Positions 17,583-28,461 of a stretch of DNA of 64,000 nucleotides are shown here, one piece after another; the stretch's first letter is position 1, and each line of letters begins with the position of its first letter. The DNA comes from an uncultured Candidatus Cenarchaeum sp. (GTDB lineage Archaea > Thermoproteota > Nitrososphaeria > Nitrososphaerales > Nitrosopumilaceae). Where the stretch lies: NCBI GenBank assembly GCA_958295735.1, contig OY282369.1, forward strand, positions 2,394,983 to 2,458,982, written 5' to 3'. Under the pieces are notes generated by a model. It ran no database searches. It was not told the DNA's origin and worked only from the letters and a program-made list of their open reading frames with translations. The position numbers were made by a program, and so were the translations under genes.

Positions 17583-19713
17583 GTACACACTTACCTCCCC
17601 CCCCCCTCCCGGCGCCCCCCGCGCGCCCGGGCTGCCCCGATCGGCGCGCGCCGCGCGATCGCGGCCGGAGCGGGGATCCTTCGGCGGGCGGGCGCCGCCC
17701 CCCGCGCGCCCGGGCTGCCCCGATCGGCGCGCGCCGCGCGATCGCGGCAGGGTTCGGGGCATTTTCGGCGCGCGGCCGCCCCGGTACGGCGCTCCGTCCC
17801 GATGCCTGACGCGGGCTGACGCCGCCCGCGCGCGCCCGGCAGATCCGCTGGGGCCGGTCAGGCGGACGCCGCTGCCGGAGCCGGCGCCCGCCCCGCCGCG
17901 GAGCCGGGCGGGCGCACCAGCCCGGATGCGGGGTCATCGAAGACGCACCAGTCGGGCCCGGCCCACGGGCCGGGGTCGAACATTTTCCAGTCGCGATTGC
18001 GGGCGATCTCGGTGAAGGCCCTGCCCGGGAACATGCCGTTCATGCGGGCGGTGCCCCCGATCGTGACCAGCTCGGAGAACGTCTTGCGCCCCTCCGGCGT
18101 GGAGATCTTGTGGTGCGCGTTGCGCTGCGTCACTATGAGGTCGCGTATGGCGAGCTCGGCGGGGTTGTTGTGGGGCGGCATGCCGCGGAATCCCATGAAC
18201 GTGAGCACGTGCGGCTCGGCGTTGGCGAGGTGCGTCTTCAGCTTGCCTTCCGGGTACGCCGACACGGCGTCGTGGAACTCCTTGGCCAGGTACGTCACGG
18301 TGAACGGCGCCAGCGTCTTGATGCCGTGTATCTTGTGGTAGTACCCCTGCATCCAGTCGTGCCTCGCCTCGTCCCCCGGGTCGCCGTCCACGGCGACGGC
18401 CTCGCCCTTGGCGAGCAGGTGCCTGCAGCATCTCTGCAGATGCTGGAACCACGCGCGGTACGCCGGCAGCCCGTCGGCCACCACCGCCCTGCGGGACAGC
18501 CAGCCGAAGTGCTCCCTCAGGACCGCCGCCCCCCGGGTGGGCGCGAAGTGCACCCACACGGCGTTGCCCACGACGGCCACCCAGACGTAGCCGGTCTTGC
18601 CCAGCACGCCGATCTTGAACCCGGTCTCGTCCATGTGCACGAACATGCTCTCGCGGAACGCCCACTTGATGTCCTCCAGCTGCTTCTTCGACGCGCCCGC
18701 CATGGCCCTCCGGGCCTTCGCCACGGCCGCCTCCGAGATGCGGAAGTAGAACGTGGACTCGATAAAGCCGGCGATCCTCGCGTCCGTGCAGCCCATCTCG
18801 AACAGCGCCATTATGAGGCCGAGCGCCCTCGGGCCGCACGAGGTGCCCTTCGGAAACGGCGCCTGGGCCTCGTAGTACTTCTCGCACCTGCCGCACCAGC
18901 CCGTCTCCACCTCGATCATCGCGGTGACCACGCGCCAGAACTGATCGAAGTCGTTGACCAGCTTTCGCCACCTGTCGAACTTCTCCAGGGGGCCGCAGCA
19001 CACGGGGCACGTCAGGATCCCGCACTTCATGGTGAACTCGGGCTTGTTGCAGTGCGAGACGCCCTTGTGCCCTTGGGGCGGGCCCATCTTGCGCGGGGCG
19101 CCGCCGTCCGGAGCGGGCTTGCCGTCGGATCCGGCCCCGTCGCTCCCCTTGTAGCCCCGCTCCTTGCGCCAGGCGTTCCGCCGGGGGCCGTACGTGGTGA
19201 GGGACGACGAGGGCGCGTTCGGGCCGTCGCACACGGCAAGCCTGACCGCCTGCTCGGCGGCCTTGGCCTTCAGCCCGGAGTTCTCGGCTTCCAGCCAGGC
19301 GATCTTTTCCAACGCGGCCGCCAGTTCCTTGCGCAGCAGCGCCTGCTCCGTGGACTTGGCCTTCAGCATCGCGATCTCGGCCGCCCGCTCCGCGGCCTCG
19401 GCTTCCAGCCCGGCGATCTTTTCGAGCGAGGCCGCAAGTTCCTTGCGCAGCAGCGCCTGCTCCGTGGACTTGGCCTTCAGCATCGCGATCTCGGCCGCCC
19501 GCTCCGCGGCCTCGGCTTCCAGCCCGGCGATCTTTTCCAACGCGGCCGCCAGTTCCTTGCGCAGCAGCGCCACCCCGGATTCCGCCATGCCGGCAGGCCC
19601 AAACTCGCCACAATTATACAAATCGACCCTTAGGCCAGCCTAAGCTTGCGCGGCGCGCGGGCCCGCCCGGGCGGCCAAGTCGCGGCGGGAGGGGGGGGGA
19701 GGTAAGTGTGTAC
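17583..19713. mobile_element. IS66-like insertion sequence, copy 2 (2131 bp)
   Basis: Same ends as copy 1 (GTACACACTTACC ... GGTAAGTGTGTAC). Flanks show a 7-base direct match, CCCCGCG (17576-17582 and 19714-19720); an eighth base differs. The 113-bp length difference from copy 1 is explained by one missing 38-codon repeat plus a one-base change in a homopolymer run. Confidence 0.9.
17858..19588 (-). CDS. IS66-family transposase (copy 2)
   Basis: 576 residues, near-identical to the copy at 2204, with the same zinc-ribbon and DDE motifs (HMDETGFK, VVADGLPAYR, NNPAELAIRD). The coiled coil has three 38-residue repeats instead of four, and a few substitutions (for example EIAWLEAENSG for EIAGLEAENSG) separate the copies. 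Both look functional, so transposition is recent. Confidence 0.94.
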   Translation of the reverse strand: MAESGVALLRKELAAALEKIAGLEAEAAERAAEIAMLKAKSTEQALLRKELAASLEKIAGLEAEAAERAAEIAMLKAKSTEQALLRKELAAALEKIAWLEAENSGLKAKAAEQAVRLAVCDGPNAPSSSLTTYGPRRNAWRKERGYKGSDGAGSDGKPAPDGGAPRKMGPPQGHKGVSHCNKPEFTMKCGILTCPVCCGPLEKFDRWRKLVNDFDQFWRVVTAMIEVETGWCGRCEKYYEAQAPFPKGTSCGPRALGLIMALFEMGCTDARIAGFIESTFYFRISEAAVAKARRAMAGASKKQLEDIKWAFRESMFVHMDETGFKIGVLGKTGYVWVAVVGNAVWVHFAPTRGAAVLREHFGWLSRRAVVADGLPAYRAWFQHLQRCCRHLLAKGEAVAVDGDPGDEARHDWMQGYYHKIHGIKTLAPFTVTYLAKEFHDAVSAYPEGKLKTHLANAEPHVLTFMGFRGMPPHNNPAELAIRDLIVTQRNAHHKISTPEGRKTFSELVTIGGTARMNGMFPGRAFTEIARNRDWKMFDPGPWAGPDWCVFDDPASGLVRPPGSAAGRAPAPAAASA

Positions 19714-20010
19714 CCCCGCGCGCGTGCCTCCCCTCCTCCCGCCGCGCCAGTTCCTCGCGCGCCGCCGCCGCCTCCGATTCCGCCGCGCCGCCGCCGCAAT
19801 CCCGCCGCGCCGCGCCGCCGTCCAACGAAGACTCCGCTCTTTGGGCCCAAACTGCTACCCGCACGGCGCCACCCGTGGCGAAATTTTCGACGGTTGGCAG
19901 CATGGTGCCAACAAACCAAGGGATCCCGCCGTCCTGCCAGGATTGCGCGGCGCGCGGGCCCCCGGGGGCGGAAGCCGCGGCGGGAGGGGGGGGGGGAGGC
20001 AAGCGTGCAC
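19714..20010. mobile_element. M2 MITE derived from the IS66-like element
   Basis: Right end GCGGCGGGAGGGGGGGGG then GGCAAGCGTGCAC at 20010; degraded left end CGTGCCTCCCCTCC near 19723. The subterminal GATTGCGCGGCGCGCGGGC resembles the inside of the IS right end. No transposase. It abuts IS copy 2, and CCCCGC(G/C) recurs at 17576, 19714 and 20011. Confidence 0.7.
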
Positions 20011-20023
20011 CCCCGCCGCGGCT

Positions 20024-20222
20024 GTACGCACTTACCTCCCCCCCCCCGCCGCGCCAGTTCCTCGCGCGCCGCCACCGTCTCTGACTCCGCCGTGCCGCGG
20101 CACAAATCCGCCATACTAGTACCGCCAACCAAGGGATCCAGCCGTTGGGCTAGGATTGCGTGACGTGCAGGCCAGCCAGGGCGTCCACAAAGTGCGGCGG
20201 GAGGGGGGAGGCAACCGTGCAC
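20024..20222. mobile_element. M2 MITE (199 bp)
   Basis: Left end GTACGCACTTACCTCCCC, right end GGGGGGAGGCAACCGTGCAC. Interior ACCAAGGGATCC and AGGATTGCG are shared with the copies at 19714 and 27040. Flanks share CCGCG only, so the target duplication is blurred. Confidence 0.75.
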
Positions 20223-20240
20223 CCGCGCGCTCAAAACGCA

Positions 20241-20250
20241 TTTAAATATG
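20241..20250 (+). promoter_or_regulatory. TATA box of the Ntn-hydrolase/HEAT module
   Basis: TTTAAATATG, preceded by AAAACGCA as a possible BRE, 25 bases before the GTG at 20271. One of the clearest promoters here; it fixes the GTG as the start. Confidence 0.75.
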
Positions 20251-20270
20251 TGGTGGAGTCCTAGGGCGGC

Positions 20271-20894
20271 GTGACGCTTTTGACGTTTGCGAGGGGCAAC
20301 GACGGATTTGTGCTCGTCTCCGATCGGAAGGAGAGCGCAAGCGATGGATCGAGAAACGAGGTCGACAAATTCTACCTAGACGCAGACGGAAAGTTTTTCT
20401 TGGCGCTTGCAGGAGATGCCGCTTTCAACAAGCCGCTTTTTACCCACTTGAAGCACGGGTGTGACAGTACCGACACCGTCGTAAACAGGCTGAAATCCTA
20501 CAGGCGCGAGTATTATGCACGACGCCAGAATGCTATGCACTCGCCGGCTTATGGCGCGAAACCTTCCAACGGCTTTTTGATTCTGAAAGAAAACAAAGAA
20601 TACGCGCCGCACACCGTGAGGTTCATCGAGGACGATTTCATTATTAGCCACAACAATGCTCGATTTTATGCAGTCGGAGATTCTACGGCCAAACGGATGG
20701 TCTGGAATACCTTGAGGCACATAAATTTTTTGTACCGCATGTGCGAGATGCTGGCACGATACATTATTGCCTCCGCAGCCAATGCCGCGCAGGAGGTCGG
20801 CGCTGTGGGAGACATGGGGTATGGGTTTGATGTCTTTGCGTTTATGAAAAAAACGAGCAGATCTTGTGCCGTCACCGATATGCGAACGAGATGA
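20271..20894 (+). CDS. Proteasome-like Ntn hydrolase
   Basis: 207 residues as read, from GTG. The N-terminus looks like a proteasome beta-type Ntn hydrolase: Thr at position 2 (free after Met removal), SDRKES matching the conserved Asp17 region, and VDKFYLDADGKFFLALAGD matching the Lys33 strand-turn-strand. A VGDST motif comes later. HslV and Anbu peptidases share this fold. At 20847-20853 a run of seven A is followed by a short C-terminus; a -1 shift there would instead read NEQILCRHRYANEMTQIEVL to TGA 20972-20974, about 27 residues longer and overlapping the next start by 8 bases. Composition is far less GC-rich than the flanks, indicating transfer. Peptidase activity is inferred. Confidence 0.72.
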   Translation: MTLLTFARGNDGFVLVSDRKESASDGSRNEVDKFYLDADGKFFLALAGDAAFNKPLFTHLKHGCDSTDTVVNRLKSYRREYYARRQNAMHSPAYGAKPSNGFLILKENKEYAPHTVRFIEDDFIISHNNARFYAVGDSTAKRMVWNTLRHINFLYRMCEMLARYIIASAANAAQEVGAVGDMGYGFDVFAFMKKTSRSCAVTDMRTR

Positions 20895-20966
20895 CACAGA
20901 TTGAGGTCTTGTTCAAGCATGACCCCGAAGCCATCCTTTCGGAGTGTAAGCCCGGTGGCATTAGAG

Positions 20967-23225
20967 ATGAATGAGACACAGGCCAAGCACATTGAGGAGA
21001 AGATCAGGGAAACCATTTGGAATCAAGAGGGCGCGCAGGAGCCCGCCTACTGGAAACCGGAGAGGCTGGTTGCCCTGCATGGCGGCCAGGCGCTAAACTC
21101 CGAGAACCTGCACGATCTCGTCGTATTTCTTGTCGAATACGACGTCTTTGATTTCCTTCCCGCCATAGCTGGCCTGCTTGCGGATGCCGCATCGGACAGC
21201 GATGCGTTTGCCAAGACGCTGGATAGCATATATGACAAAATTGGGGACGATATGGCATCAGGACCTGTCGCGGAATCAATCCGATCCCTCGGATCCTCGG
21301 ATCCAGAGACGGCCTTGCGGATAGCCGAAAGGCTGTTGGGGTATGATGATCCCGGGTATGCGTACCTGCTGATAGGCGGCGCGGCCGCCAAGCTGCCGAG
21401 CAGGTGCGAGGACCTGACGAATAAACTGCTTGGCTCTGACGATGCGCGGCTTTGGCCGGTCGCAATAAACGCGCTGGTTGTCACTTATGTCGACTCCGGC
21501 AGGCGCGCGGGCGAAGACGTGCTTAAGGCGCTAGGGCGCGCATCCGAATCAAACGACATAGACGTGATGATGGCTGCCATCAACGCGTTTATTTTATTTT
21601 ACGCCAGCGACGAGAAAAGGTCCGCTCGCGCGATAGAGGGGCTGGCCAGAAGGCACCACAAGTGCGCGTGGCTGCTGGCCCGCCGTATATGCACGAAGCC
21701 ACAATTTGACGAGGATACCGCGCTGCATCTTCTCCACACGTGTTCGGAGTTTTCCGACACCAACGTGAAGCAGGCGGTTTACCACGCACTAACAAGCTTC
21801 GTAGACGGCTACCTCGAGGACGTGCTGCGGATTGTCGTCATGTATGCCACAAGAGACGGGCGCGGCGTGGAGGGCGAAGAACGCCTGCTTGAACGGATCG
21901 GCAAGGCCCACGGGGCAAAGGCCGTAGCGGCAATGCTGGACATGCTGGGGGGACAGAAACCAACCGCCGACCTGCATCGTCACGCCCCCGGGATGGTAAT
22001 GTCCCTGCTTGCGGGCGCCGGCAGCGGCGATGCCATGGGGCCCATATTTGAGGCGATCCGCTCAAAGCGGGACCCGTACAGGATCGGAATAAAGGCGCTG
22101 CGCGAGGTGATCACGGATTCGGGCGTGGGCGGCGCGTCGCGCGGCTCCATGCTCGCCGCCGCGCGCAGCTTCCTGGAACGCCTTGCAGAATCCATGGAAA
22201 TCAACACGGATCGGATCGCCCGGGACGAGAGCGATCAGGCCATAATCTGCGGACACATCATCTATGCCATACTGCACAACGCAAAGCCGGACTATGAGCT
22301 CGTGCGCAAAAACATGGAACGCTTTCCAGAGATGCGCTCCCTGCTTGGCCGGCAGTGGATCGACAGCATGCGGCAAGACAAGCGCGCCCACCCGATCCTG
22401 GCCATGCTGGGGCAAAAACTTCCCCCGAAAGAGGAGATAGACGACCTGATCAAGCGCATTAATTCGGCACGGATGTCGCAGGAGAGAGCCAACCTGGTGC
22501 TCAAGCTGAAGCATCTGGCCGGCGCCTGCTGCTTCCTGTGCGGGCTAGATCGAAACCTGCGCACGCTCAAGCAGCACGAACTCGACACGGCCGCATACGC
22601 GGAACAGATGAAAAACGAAAAACAGTTTTGGAATGCGATAAGCGAGATCAATTTCATCGTGCGGTTCCTGGGCAAATGCGGCACAGAGATAAAGCCCAAG
22701 ATCGGCTCCAAAAAGCTGGATGCCCGGCTGGATGTCGGAGGGCGGCCGGTTTGCGTGGAAATATTCAATCCCGAGACGCTCTTAAGGTCCAAGCTGTTCT
22801 CGAGAGGGCAGGCCGTGCCCGAGAGGATCCCGGGCAAGACGTACGACAAATTCAGAAACCAGCTGCGCGGGCTTGACGGCGAGGGGCATCCCGTCCTGCT
22901 TGCGATAGACGTGGGAGAATCGGGGACAGACTATGGCTTTGTAGAGGAGTACCTGCTGGGGCCGCTGATCGCCATGGCGCATTTCGACCGAAATGGAGGG
23001 GCGGCCGGCTTGCGGTACGAACGGATGGGGGACGGATCCGCGCACGCGCGGGATCCTGGAACGGACGTTATCAGCGCCGTTGTATGCTACAAGATGCGGT
23101 GGCGGGACGATCTCGCCGAGCAGATGGAATACAAGATCTTCTACAACCTGCACGCGCGCTACAAGATCGACGCGCCCACGTTGCGGTTTCTGGAAGAGTG
23201 TCTTGGCAGCAAGCGTGCTGTCTAG
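20967..23225 (+). CDS. HEAT-repeat-like protein with PD-(D/E)xK-like C-terminus
   Basis: 752 residues from ATG 20967 (an upstream in-frame ATG at 20901 is possible). Residues 1 to about 500 are helical repeats of the HEAT/ARM sort (ETALRIAERLLGYDDPGYAY, DARLWPVAINALVVTYVDSG, and similar). Residues 540-700 resemble a restriction-endonuclease fold: SEINFIVRFLGKCG (Glu helix), LDARLDVGGRPVCVEIFNPE (Asp then Glu; the usual ExK lysine is absent) and KTYDKFRNQLRGL. Coupled to the Ntn hydrolase gene through an ATGAATGA overlap if that gene is read through. Large helical scaffold plus nuclease-like end in a low-GC, IS-flanked position suggests anti-mobile-element defence, but no named system is recognised. 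Confidence 0.75.
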   Translation: MNETQAKHIEEKIRETIWNQEGAQEPAYWKPERLVALHGGQALNSENLHDLVVFLVEYDVFDFLPAIAGLLADAASDSDAFAKTLDSIYDKIGDDMASGPVAESIRSLGSSDPETALRIAERLLGYDDPGYAYLLIGGAAAKLPSRCEDLTNKLLGSDDARLWPVAINALVVTYVDSGRRAGEDVLKALGRASESNDIDVMMAAINAFILFYASDEKRSARAIEGLARRHHKCAWLLARRICTKPQFDEDTALHLLHTCSEFSDTNVKQAVYHALTSFVDGYLEDVLRIVVMYATRDGRGVEGEERLLERIGKAHGAKAVAAMLDMLGGQKPTADLHRHAPGMVMSLLAGAGSGDAMGPIFEAIRSKRDPYRIGIKALREVITDSGVGGASRGSMLAAARSFLERLAESMEINTDRIARDESDQAIICGHIIYAILHNAKPDYELVRKNMERFPEMRSLLGRQWIDSMRQDKRAHPILAMLGQKLPPKEEIDDLIKRINSARMSQERANLVLKLKHLAGACCFLCGLDRNLRTLKQHELDTAAYAEQMKNEKQFWNAISEINFIVRFLGKCGTEIKPKIGSKKLDARLDVGGRPVCVEIFNPETLLRSKLFSRGQAVPERIPGKTYDKFRNQLRGLDGEGHPVLLAIDVGESGTDYGFVEEYLLGPLIAMAHFDRNGGAAGLRYERMGDGSAHARDPGTDVISAVVCYKMRWRDDLAEQMEYKIFYNLHARYKIDAPTLRFLEECLGSKRAV

Positions 23226-23239
23226 AAGAAAAGCGAACA

Positions 23240-23275
23240 TTGGCCGGGTTTCGCGGCGCCCAGCCGGCCAATTTT
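23240..23275 (+). terminator. Possible hairpin terminator
   Basis: TTGGCCGG and CCGGCCAA form a perfect 8-bp stem with a 16-base loop, followed by TTTT, 15 bases after the stop of the HEAT gene. Confidence 0.45.
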
Positions 23276-23639
23276 CGTTCCCATGCCGGCAATCGCGGGC
23301 AACTTCGTCCCAAATGCTGCGCCGCGGATGCGAGGACGTCGATCCTGGCGGGGCGCGCCCCGGGACCCCGCAGCGGCGGTACCGGGATCTCCCGCCGGCT
23401 CGCGGGACGCCTGCGTGATCGGCCCGCGCTTCGCCCGCTTCTGGATCCCCCCGATCGCGCTGTTCCGGCCCGGCGACCGGCGCCGCGCTCGCGCCGCGCT
23501 CCCCCCCGCAGCCGAGCACGATTGTCCCGGACCCGGCCTCCTGCGCGCGGCCCGGCACATGGGCGCATTTTCGACCTCCGGCGCCGGCCGGGTCCGCGCC
23601 GCTGAACTGCGCCCCGCGCGGGCAGATCCGGCACTCCCG

Positions 23640-24593
23640 CGAGCGGCCGGGGGGCGGCTGCTCCACGGGAGCGCCCTTGGCCTCCGCCGCTTTCCGGCTT
23701 CGCACTACCGGGCCGGCGAGCCGGAGGATCTCGTCCTTGGGAAGGCGGTACATCGCCCCCCGGCGCCCGAAGTTGCGTCGATCGATGCCGGCGCCGACCC
23801 CCTGCGGGGCGCCTGCTCGATCTTGTCCGGAGCCGGAACCGCGCGGGATCCCCCGCCGCACAGCCCGCGTGTGGGGCCGGCCGAGAGCCAGTCTCCCGAT
23901 CCCGCCGCATCCACCGCATGATGCACCGGAAACGCCCCGCCCGCCTCGACGATCCGTCCCGAGGGACTCGTCCCGTGCGCGAGGCCGCCCCCCGTGGCCT
24001 GGATCTCCGGCGGGGCGCCGGTTCCGGGCTCGATCCCGCCGGGCCCGCCGCAGCGCTTCACGACGTCGGCGATGCGCGGGCACCCGGCGAAGCCGCCGCC
24101 GTCCTTGAACTTGGGCGGCTCGAAGAACATGGCGCCCCCCACCCTTCATCCCGCGCGCCAGCGCCAGGGCGCCCTTGTCCGCCCCGTCGAAATAGAACAC
24201 GCAGGCATCGGGGATCCCGCGCAGCGCATCCCCGGCCGACTTTGGCGCACGGCATCTTGCTGGGGAGACGCTTCCCGCGCTCGCACTCGAAGCGGGACGC
24301 GTGGCCCGCCCCGCCGCGGGGGGCGATCCTTTCCATGATCCTGGGCGGCGGGGAGCCCCGCTCCCTGCCCGCGAAGTCAGTCCTCGCCCCCCACCGCTCC
24401 ACGTCCTCCATTATCCTGCCCACTCGGGATCGTCCCCCAGCCTGGCCGCGGGGTACGAGTCCCAGCCCGGGTACGACAGGATGGTCAGCACGTTGCCGCA
24501 CGAGCCCCCCGCGAAGAAGCCGGGCCCGCCGCTTTCGCCGCACGCGACGTCCAGCGTCACCGGCCCCGAGCCGCCGCGGGCGGGCTCCTCCAT
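23640..24593 (-). pseudogene. Broken PfkB-family carbohydrate kinase
   Basis: Read from 24593 downwards, kinase pieces appear in order but change frame at least three times. ACGESGGPGFFAGGSCGNVL-TILSY (24593-24415) is the N-terminal substrate/GGxxxN region. RIMEDVERWGARTDF comes next in another frame, then FYFDGADKGALALARG (about 24200). AMFFEPPKFKDGGGF and the catalytic anion-hole motif DAAGSGDWLSAG (about 23890) follow in a third frame. DEILRLAGPV lies near 23740. The remaining sequence down to 23276 has no clear gene. Such kinases phosphorylate sugars or nucleosides; this copy cannot make a full protein. Confidence 0.75.
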
Positions 24594-24640
24594 GTGGGTT
24601 CGTGGGCCGGGGGGTTTTGCGCATTCCCGGGGCCCCCGGG

Positions 24641-24730
24641 TATGAGGTCACGTGCACGTCAGCCACAGGCGTGAAAACGCCTTGCTGATCTAGATTCACT
24701 CCTGAGGGGTGGGGGTTGCCGACCTCGCAC
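24641..24730 (+). repeat. R1 dispersed repeat
   Basis: TATGAGGTCACGTGCACGTC, then the CACAGGCGTGAAAACGCCT hairpin core, GCTGATCTAGATTC, and GTTGCCGACCTCGCACGC. Its right edge is followed 10 bases later by M1 copy A. Confidence 0.75.
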
Positions 24731-27314: not shown

Positions 27315-27752
27315 CTACCGCCCGCGCGCGCACAGGCCGCCCTCGATGTAGCGCGCCACCTGCTCCCCCGGTATGTCGTAGGTGAGCGAGCCGTTTTCGC
27401 CGTAGCATCCCGCGCGCACCACCGTCCCGTGGTGCAGGACGCTCTTCTTCGCGAACAGCCCCATCGATCCGGGGCCGGCCGCCTGATCTTCCTTGTACAG
27501 GATCACCTTCCACCCAAGAAAGTCCCCGCCGTGGGACGTGGCGTGCTCCGGATGCCTGCCCACGAACAGGCCGACCTCGGGAATCGTCGCGGCAAAGTCC
27601 TCCTCGAACTCGGCATCCGCGGTGCTCGAGATGATGTGCGAGGCCACGGCGGATCCCGCCGCCATAAAGACGATCGGGAACACGAACAGCACCGCGAACG
27701 GCACCGCGACGACGAGGGACGCCGCCAGCAGGATCTTGTACCTGGTCCTCAC
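27315..27752 (-). CDS. Membrane-anchored protein, tandem copy 1
   Basis: 145 residues from GTG 27752. Residues 1-35 form a basic N-terminus and one membrane helix (KILLAASLVVAVPFAVLFVF). The rest is a soluble, probably extracytoplasmic domain with GLFVGRHPEHATSHGGDF, a lone Cys (RAGCYGENGSLTYD) and PGEQVARYIEGGL. No known family recognised. A TATA-like AAATTAACG (27819-27827) implies a leader of roughly 45 bases with a GGGGAGGG site before the GTG. Paralogous with 27902-28339. Confidence 0.65.
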   Translation of the reverse strand: MRTRYKILLAASLVVAVPFAVLFVFPIVFMAAGSAVASHIISSTADAEFEEDFAATIPEVGLFVGRHPEHATSHGGDFLGWKVILYKEDQAAGPGSMGLFAKKSVLHHGTVVRAGCYGENGSLTYDIPGEQVARYIEGGLCARGR

Positions 27753-27901: not shown

Positions 27902-28339
27902 CTACCGCCCGCGCGCGCACAGGCCGCCCTCGATGTAGCGCGCCACCTGCTCCCCCGGTATGTCGTAGGTGAGCGAGCCGTTTTCGCCGTAGCATCCCGC
28001 GCGCACCACCGTCCCGTGGTGCAGGACGCTCTTCTTCGCGAACAGCCCCATCGATCCGGGGCCGGCCGCCTGATCTTCCGTGTAATCGATCAACTTCCAC
28101 CCCAGAAAGTCCTCGCTGTGGGACGTGGCGTGCTCCGGATGCCTGCCCACGAACAGGCCGACCTCGGGAATCGTCGCGGCAAAGTCCTCCTCGAACTCGG
28201 CATCCGCGGTGCTCGAGATGATGTGCGAGGCCACGGCGGATCCTGCCGCCATGGCGACGACCGGGAACACGACCAGCACCGCGAACGGCGCCGCGACGAC
28301 GAGGGACGCCGCCAGCAGGATCTTGTACCTGGTCCTCAC
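27902..28339 (-). CDS. Membrane-anchored protein, tandem copy 2
   Basis: Same length and architecture as the gene at 27315; I use the equivalent GTG at 28339 (an upstream GTG at 28372 would add 11 residues). The two differ mainly in the membrane helix (VVAAPFAVLVVFPVV) and around SEDFLGWKLIDYTEDQAA. About 590 bp including promoter and flanking DNA was duplicated. The changes in coding sequence keep the frame, so both may be expressed. Confidence 0.65.
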   Translation of the reverse strand: MRTRYKILLAASLVVAAPFAVLVVFPVVAMAAGSAVASHIISSTADAEFEEDFAATIPEVGLFVGRHPEHATSHSEDFLGWKLIDYTEDQAAGPGSMGLFAKKSVLHHGTVVRAGCYGENGSLTYDIPGEQVARYIEGGLCARGR

Positions 28340-28461
28340 GCCGTCCGCCCTCCCCGAGCGCGCGGCGCGCACTCCCCGCGCACGGGGCGGGAGGGCGCCG
28401 GAGGCAAATTAACGTTGCCCGCCGGCCGGGGCCGCCCGCCCGGCGCGCCGCCCCCCGATCG

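Follow-up and report, generated by a model that had tools for sequence, protein, structure and literature searches.

A proteasome-like peptidase gene beside an OloA-like gene hints at a proteasome-like enzyme drafted into archaeal immunity

What might a proteasome-like peptidase be doing beside a long helical-repeat protein in a stretch of archaeal DNA that looks foreign to its surroundings? The question is raised by two neighbouring genes in a 64,000-nucleotide segment (hereafter the window) of a 3.17 Mb archaeal genome assembled as one contig. An initial annotation, made from the sequence alone, had described them as a self-contained module of a proteasome beta-type hydrolase and a HEAT-type protein with a nuclease-like C-terminus, had offered defence against foreign DNA as a possible role, and could name no system to which the module belonged. 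Both open reading frames were recovered where that annotation had placed them: gene 1, encoding the proteasome-like Ntn hydrolase, spans 20271..20894 on the + strand (GTG start, 207 aa as read), and gene 2, encoding an OloA-like HEAT-type protein with a nuclease-like C-terminus, spans 20967..23225 on the same strand (ATG start, 752 aa).

The composition and flanks of the module agree with what had been noticed at first reading. The GC content of gene 1 is 51% and that of gene 2 is 59%, against 72% for the window as a whole, and this low GC marks the module as foreign. Its upstream neighbour is an IS66-family transposase gene (17858..19621, - strand; Pfam DDE_Tnp_IS66, E 1.4e-16), which is followed by two MITE-like elements directly upstream of the pair: one at 19717..20005 with imperfect terminal inverted repeats (19717-19746 and 19976-20005, 80%) and one at 20017..20229 with inverted arms (20017-20052 and 20194-20229) and about 20 copies in the genome. 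Downstream lies a pseudogene of a PfkB-type kinase (approximate limits 23582..24589, - strand), an intact copy of which is present elsewhere in the genome. Between the second MITE-like element and gene 1, the TATA-box-like sequence TTTAAATAT (20241..20249, + strand) is located about 26 nt upstream of the GTG start, a spacing that would fit a leaderless archaeal mRNA; a scan for sigma-70 promoters, a method ill-suited to archaea, returned nothing useful. Further along the window, two adjacent and near-identical small ORFs with a hydrophobic segment (27315-27752 and 27902-28372, - strand) are probably a recent tandem duplication.

The proposal that gene 1 encodes a proteasome beta-type Ntn hydrolase held up. 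Counting Thr2 as residue 1, its product carries Thr1, Asp17 (in SDRKES), Lys32 (in VDKFY) and Gly47 (in LALAG), and all four gene 1 homologues compared, namely those of the window, Candidatus Nitrosotalea devanaterra and the genomes G421 and G037, retain Asp17, Lys32 and Gly47 as well as a Thr that directly follows the initiator Met. Proteasome-like homologues are marked by a Thr1-Asp17-Lys33 triad and the oxyanion Gly47 (PMC8665760); of the triad expected by the initial annotation, Thr1 and Asp17 are therefore in place, whereas the lysine of the gene 1 homologues falls in the sequence at 32, one residue off Lys33. A profile of gene 1 aligned to archaeal proteasome beta subunits over the N-terminal ~60 columns (hhalign E 7.7e-6, probability 84%), a four-sequence profile gave E 1.6e-5, and the reversed-sequence control yielded no match. 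Single-sequence and family-level searches gave no significant match: a search of the PDB with gene 1 alone retrieved a proteasome alpha subunit at a non-significant E of 0.24, neither gene product matched a Pfam or NCBIfam family above cut-off (PF00227 included, for gene 1), and no PADLOC defence model matched gene 1. An AlphaFold model built from a two-sequence alignment had a pLDDT of 48, with an order of strands and helices that fits, and the structures nearest to it were mostly proteasome subunits, all at E > 0.1. The evidence thus supports a predicted threonine peptidase that is a divergent Ntn hydrolase of the proteasome family. It has Thr1, Asp17, a lysine at 32/33 and Gly47 in common with the 20S beta subunit, HslV, Anbu, BPH, connectase and the 22 homologues described in PMC8665760, and differs from them in its length of about 230 aa with a C-terminus of its own, and in an operon partner that is a HEAT-type protein rather than an AAA+ ATPase.

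The most distant of the four homologues is the N-terminal part of a protein of 932 aa in G037 (L054:6309-9107, - strand), in which the proteasome-like part is followed by a long middle region and a cupredoxin-like C-terminal domain; it has no gene 2 relative adjoining. The genus of Ca. Nitrosotalea devanaterra also includes G303, which encodes another divergent proteasome-like protein (L055:5267-6247, + strand); its 326 aa include a long extension at the C-terminus. Weak matches to the Ntn profile elsewhere among archaea were left out of the membership; the three that were opened (G121, G151 and G200) resemble true proteasome beta subunits.

Absent from the initial annotation was a defect near the end of gene 1. 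Homology to its relatives stops near codon 193, at a run of seven A residues (20847..20853, + strand) that is the only one in the window, and a shift of one base there places the last ~40 codons in a different frame. The remainder of the C-terminal coding part (20854..20974, + strand) overlaps the start of gene 2 and translates as NEQILCRHRYANEMTQIEVLFKHDP, similar to the C-termini found in the G037 and Nitrosotalea homologues. Because homology breaks at the A7 run and a C-terminus of the expected kind is legible in the other frame, the window copy of gene 1 is either damaged or misassembled at its C-terminus, and the encoded peptidase may not be fully active.

The module is also part of a larger block (20221..24690) that is repeated near 863 kb in the same genome (L009:3864-7790), with the promoter region, gene 1, gene 2 and the PfkB-type kinase represented in both copies. 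Upstream of gene 1 in the second copy, TTAAAT, similar to TTTAAATAT, stands at an equal distance. That copy has lost 540 bp of gene 1 and carries Ala in place of Thr1, and its gene 2 is full length and 78% identical to that of the window. The two copies have decayed in a complementary manner, the kinase being broken in the window and intact near 863 kb, where it is the peptidase that is broken. Comparison of the two gene 2 copies gave an overall dN/dS of 0.50, and values of 0.57-0.73 over the final three fifths of the gene, with every segment below 1. The window locus could be a decaying remnant without a present function in this genome, a reading that would accommodate the frameshift in gene 1, the adjoining kinase pseudogene, the IS and MITE insertions and the dN/dS of the final three fifths of gene 2; it is at odds with a gene 2 whose 752 codons stay open in both copies with dN/dS below 1 throughout, and the one-base shift at the only A7 run of the window is possibly an assembly error. 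We consider this reading rather unlikely.

Gene 2 encodes a helical-repeat protein, as had been predicted, with HEAT-type repeats detected by Pfam HEAT_2 at E 1e-4, below the cut-off of that model. Its N-terminal half (20988..21824, + strand) matches the PADLOC model of OloA, a component of the Olokun defence system (PDLC03925, E 4.8e-10); about half of the model is covered, and the C-terminal domain lies outside the match. The same model matched six of the eight fuller-length gene 2 relatives scanned, including that of Nitrosotalea (E 4.7e-14) and three haloarchaeal relatives (E 6e-7 to 1.5e-11), and did not match the relatives in G382 and L062. When genomes were searched with the OloA model, the other matches reached only ~1e-5 at best; those between 1e-4 and 1e-5 were set aside as HEAT background, and the one that was opened, in G379, proved to be an aminopeptidase of the M1 type carrying a helical-repeat tail. 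On these grounds kinship between gene 2 and OloA is likely, although part of the match may come from HEAT repeats in general.

According to a 2025 description, Olokun had yet to be thoroughly characterised (PMC12592470); what gene 2 and its relatives share with it is the OloA-like N-terminal half. The partner differs: gene 2 is coupled to a proteasome-like peptidase, and OloB was found at E values up to 10 neither in gene 1 nor in the scanned Nitrosotalea neighbours, so we do not file the pair as Olokun. The earlier view that the module belongs to no nameable system needs qualifying accordingly, in that gene 2 matches a component of one, while the lack of OloB and a peptidase that matched no defence model speak for it. 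The pair is probably related to Olokun through OloA, and it may work like a two-gene defence module. Searches of PHROGs gave nothing significant, no gene 2 homologue was found in phage records or viral contigs, and no gene 1 homologue was found in viral contigs.

The C-terminal domain of gene 2 (22497..23222, + strand) had been likened to a variant PD-(D/E)xK nuclease, a description that stands for the motif and its two acids and falters at the lysine. Within the last 200 residues the LDARLDV...VCVEIF motif places Asp at codon 22719-22721 and Glu at codon 22758-22760, and the two acids (Asp or Glu, then Glu) are kept in nine gene 2 homologues, in which the motif takes the form L-D/E and V-E-I, the adjacency of the two strands being assumed. 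The catalytic lysine of PD-(D/E)xK enzymes, two residues past the second acid, is missing in the window, where a Phe occupies the position (E-I-F), and E-I-K is found only in two haloarchaeal relatives, L061 and L062. An acidic helix, an Asp strand, a Glu strand, a helix and a strand follow one another in the order seen in PD-(D/E)xK nucleases, and an AlphaFold model of the domain (two-sequence alignment, pLDDT 45) has an order of elements that fits the PD-(D/E)xK core. In contrast, known members were matched neither by profile nor by structure: a fold search with the pLDDT 45 model had no match, and a PDB sequence search and a profile comparison with Hjc resolvases returned nothing. A search for Shedu (SduA_C) is uninformative, as its controls also gave no match. 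We treat the domain as a putative PD-(D/E)xK nuclease, assigned on motifs.

Whether the two genes belong together was addressed by their recurrence. The order gene 1-gene 2, with overlapping stop and start, is also found in Ca. Nitrosotalea devanaterra, the nearest named genome to bear the pair and a member of the same family as the source genome, and in G421, which represents a third genus; three pair loci are thus known, all in one archaeal family. Gene 2 identity for the Nitrosotalea and G421 loci is 34-36%. Recurrence of the pair in other genera excludes chance adjacency. Gene 1 is intact at the Nitrosotalea locus alone, where it encodes 230 aa; its homologue in G421, on a draft contig, has a single stop codon at the position of a Gly conserved in the others. 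Counting the second copy, the peptidase gene is damaged at three of four loci, by a frameshift in the window, a deletion near 863 kb and a stop in G421. When eleven gene 2 proteins were placed in a tree, all four of those linked to gene 1 clustered together (support 90/97), and this grouping makes a single origin of the pairing probable.

Among 250 genomes of the family, gene 2 relatives turned up in 7, and those in G382, G366, G051 and on haloarchaeal plasmids have no adjoining gene 1. In two genomes of one genus, a protein of 88-89 aa, perhaps DNA-binding, is encoded directly upstream of the gene 2 relative, replacing gene 1 (L038:6666-6932, - strand; L087:5114-5383, + strand). On the haloarchaeal plasmids (L059, L060, L061 and L062) members of the gene 2 family are annotated as "hypothetical proteins", one of them beside BREX-5 and one beside HmaC/DUF499. 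With gene 2 so often alone and the peptidase gene so often damaged, the description of the pair as self-contained is weak. A strict antitoxin role for gene 1 was rejected since deletion of gene 1 has left gene 2 in place, and an essential antidote is hard to reconcile with a gene 1 so often damaged; such damage would be compatible with an effector that is costly, a regulator that can be dispensed with, or simple decay. Gene 2 might be a defence protein that acts alone, with the peptidase a dispensable regulator in the course of being lost, for instance one that limits self-damage through turnover of the HEAT-nuclease protein. The unaccompanied relatives, and the three broken peptidase genes set against a gene 2 that stays open in both genome copies, speak for such a reading. 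The overlap of the genes and the active-site residues are nevertheless kept between genera, so gene 1 was long under selection, and two of the lesions are open to doubt given the draft state of the G421 contig and the possible assembly error in the window. On balance we find a solitary role for gene 2 rather unlikely.

The neighbourhoods of the gene 2 relatives bear on what the family does. Outside the source genome, matches to defence models were found near eight of nine gene 2 relatives: an AbiV HEPN gene, with an HNH gene and an integrase, in Nitrosotalea; a type I methyltransferase in G382, a type IIG enzyme in G366, a type II methyltransferase in G051, a Fic protein in G516 and a DarG-like protein in G421; BREX-5 in Halorubrum ezzemoulense; and HmaC/DUF499 in Haloglomus. 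At the ninth locus, in Halomontanus, two neighbours were scanned and neither had a defence match. Ten control proteins from five loci gave no defence matches; as this control set is small and unmatched, and the neighbours scanned were chosen as likely defence genes, eight of nine against none of five is an indication and does not measure an enrichment. Neither the window locus nor its second copy lies among defence genes, so the repeated adjacency to defence genes that the initial annotation had named as support holds for the relatives of gene 2 and not for the window's own surroundings. Placement of the genome's two copies among ordinary genes and mobile elements would suit a housekeeping or stress function, such as protein quality control or DNA repair, for which the islands shared with defence genes elsewhere would be coincidental, and no defence role is known for homologues of the proteasome in general (PMC8665760). 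The patchy presence in 7 of 250 genomes, the low GC, the plasmid-borne relatives and the defence neighbours are instead typical of accessory genes, and we regard a housekeeping function as distinctly unlikely.

Our best explanation is that the locus is an acquired two-gene operon, in which an OloA-like defence protein came to be joined, on a single occasion and within one clade of ammonia-oxidising archaea, by a proteasome-like peptidase; we put the chance that this reading as a whole is correct at about even. Beyond the genomic evidence we infer a likely defence role of the pair, nuclease action by gene 2 and each step of the mechanism that follows. Gene 2 would form the core, its HEAT-type helical repeats serving as a scaffold for sensing or docking and its C-terminal nuclease-like domain cutting or binding nucleic acid. 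Gene 1 would have joined it in this clade as an operonic small threonine peptidase, presumably one that needs no propeptide, since Thr1 directly follows the initiator Met. Most likely, the HEAT scaffold would recruit the peptidase and both would act in one response: either the peptidase might cut the HEAT-nuclease protein and thereby switch it, or the scaffold might sense an intruder, upon which the peptidase would cut a target protein. That archaeal immunity has a proteasome-family threonine peptidase as a working part, with an OloA-like HEAT-nuclease protein directing it, is a possibility that we advance only tentatively.

A survey of 22 new proteasome homologues found no gene contexts that point to a specific function (PMC8665760). 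For one such homologue, the operon conserved with a defence-associated protein offers a testable role, and it suggests that the proteasome fold may have found use in prokaryotic immunity. Olokun, for its part, gains archaeal OloA-like relatives that have a different partner and a nuclease-like domain. If the proposed role is true, the peptidase of these archaea would be an immune protease derived from the proteasome lineage.
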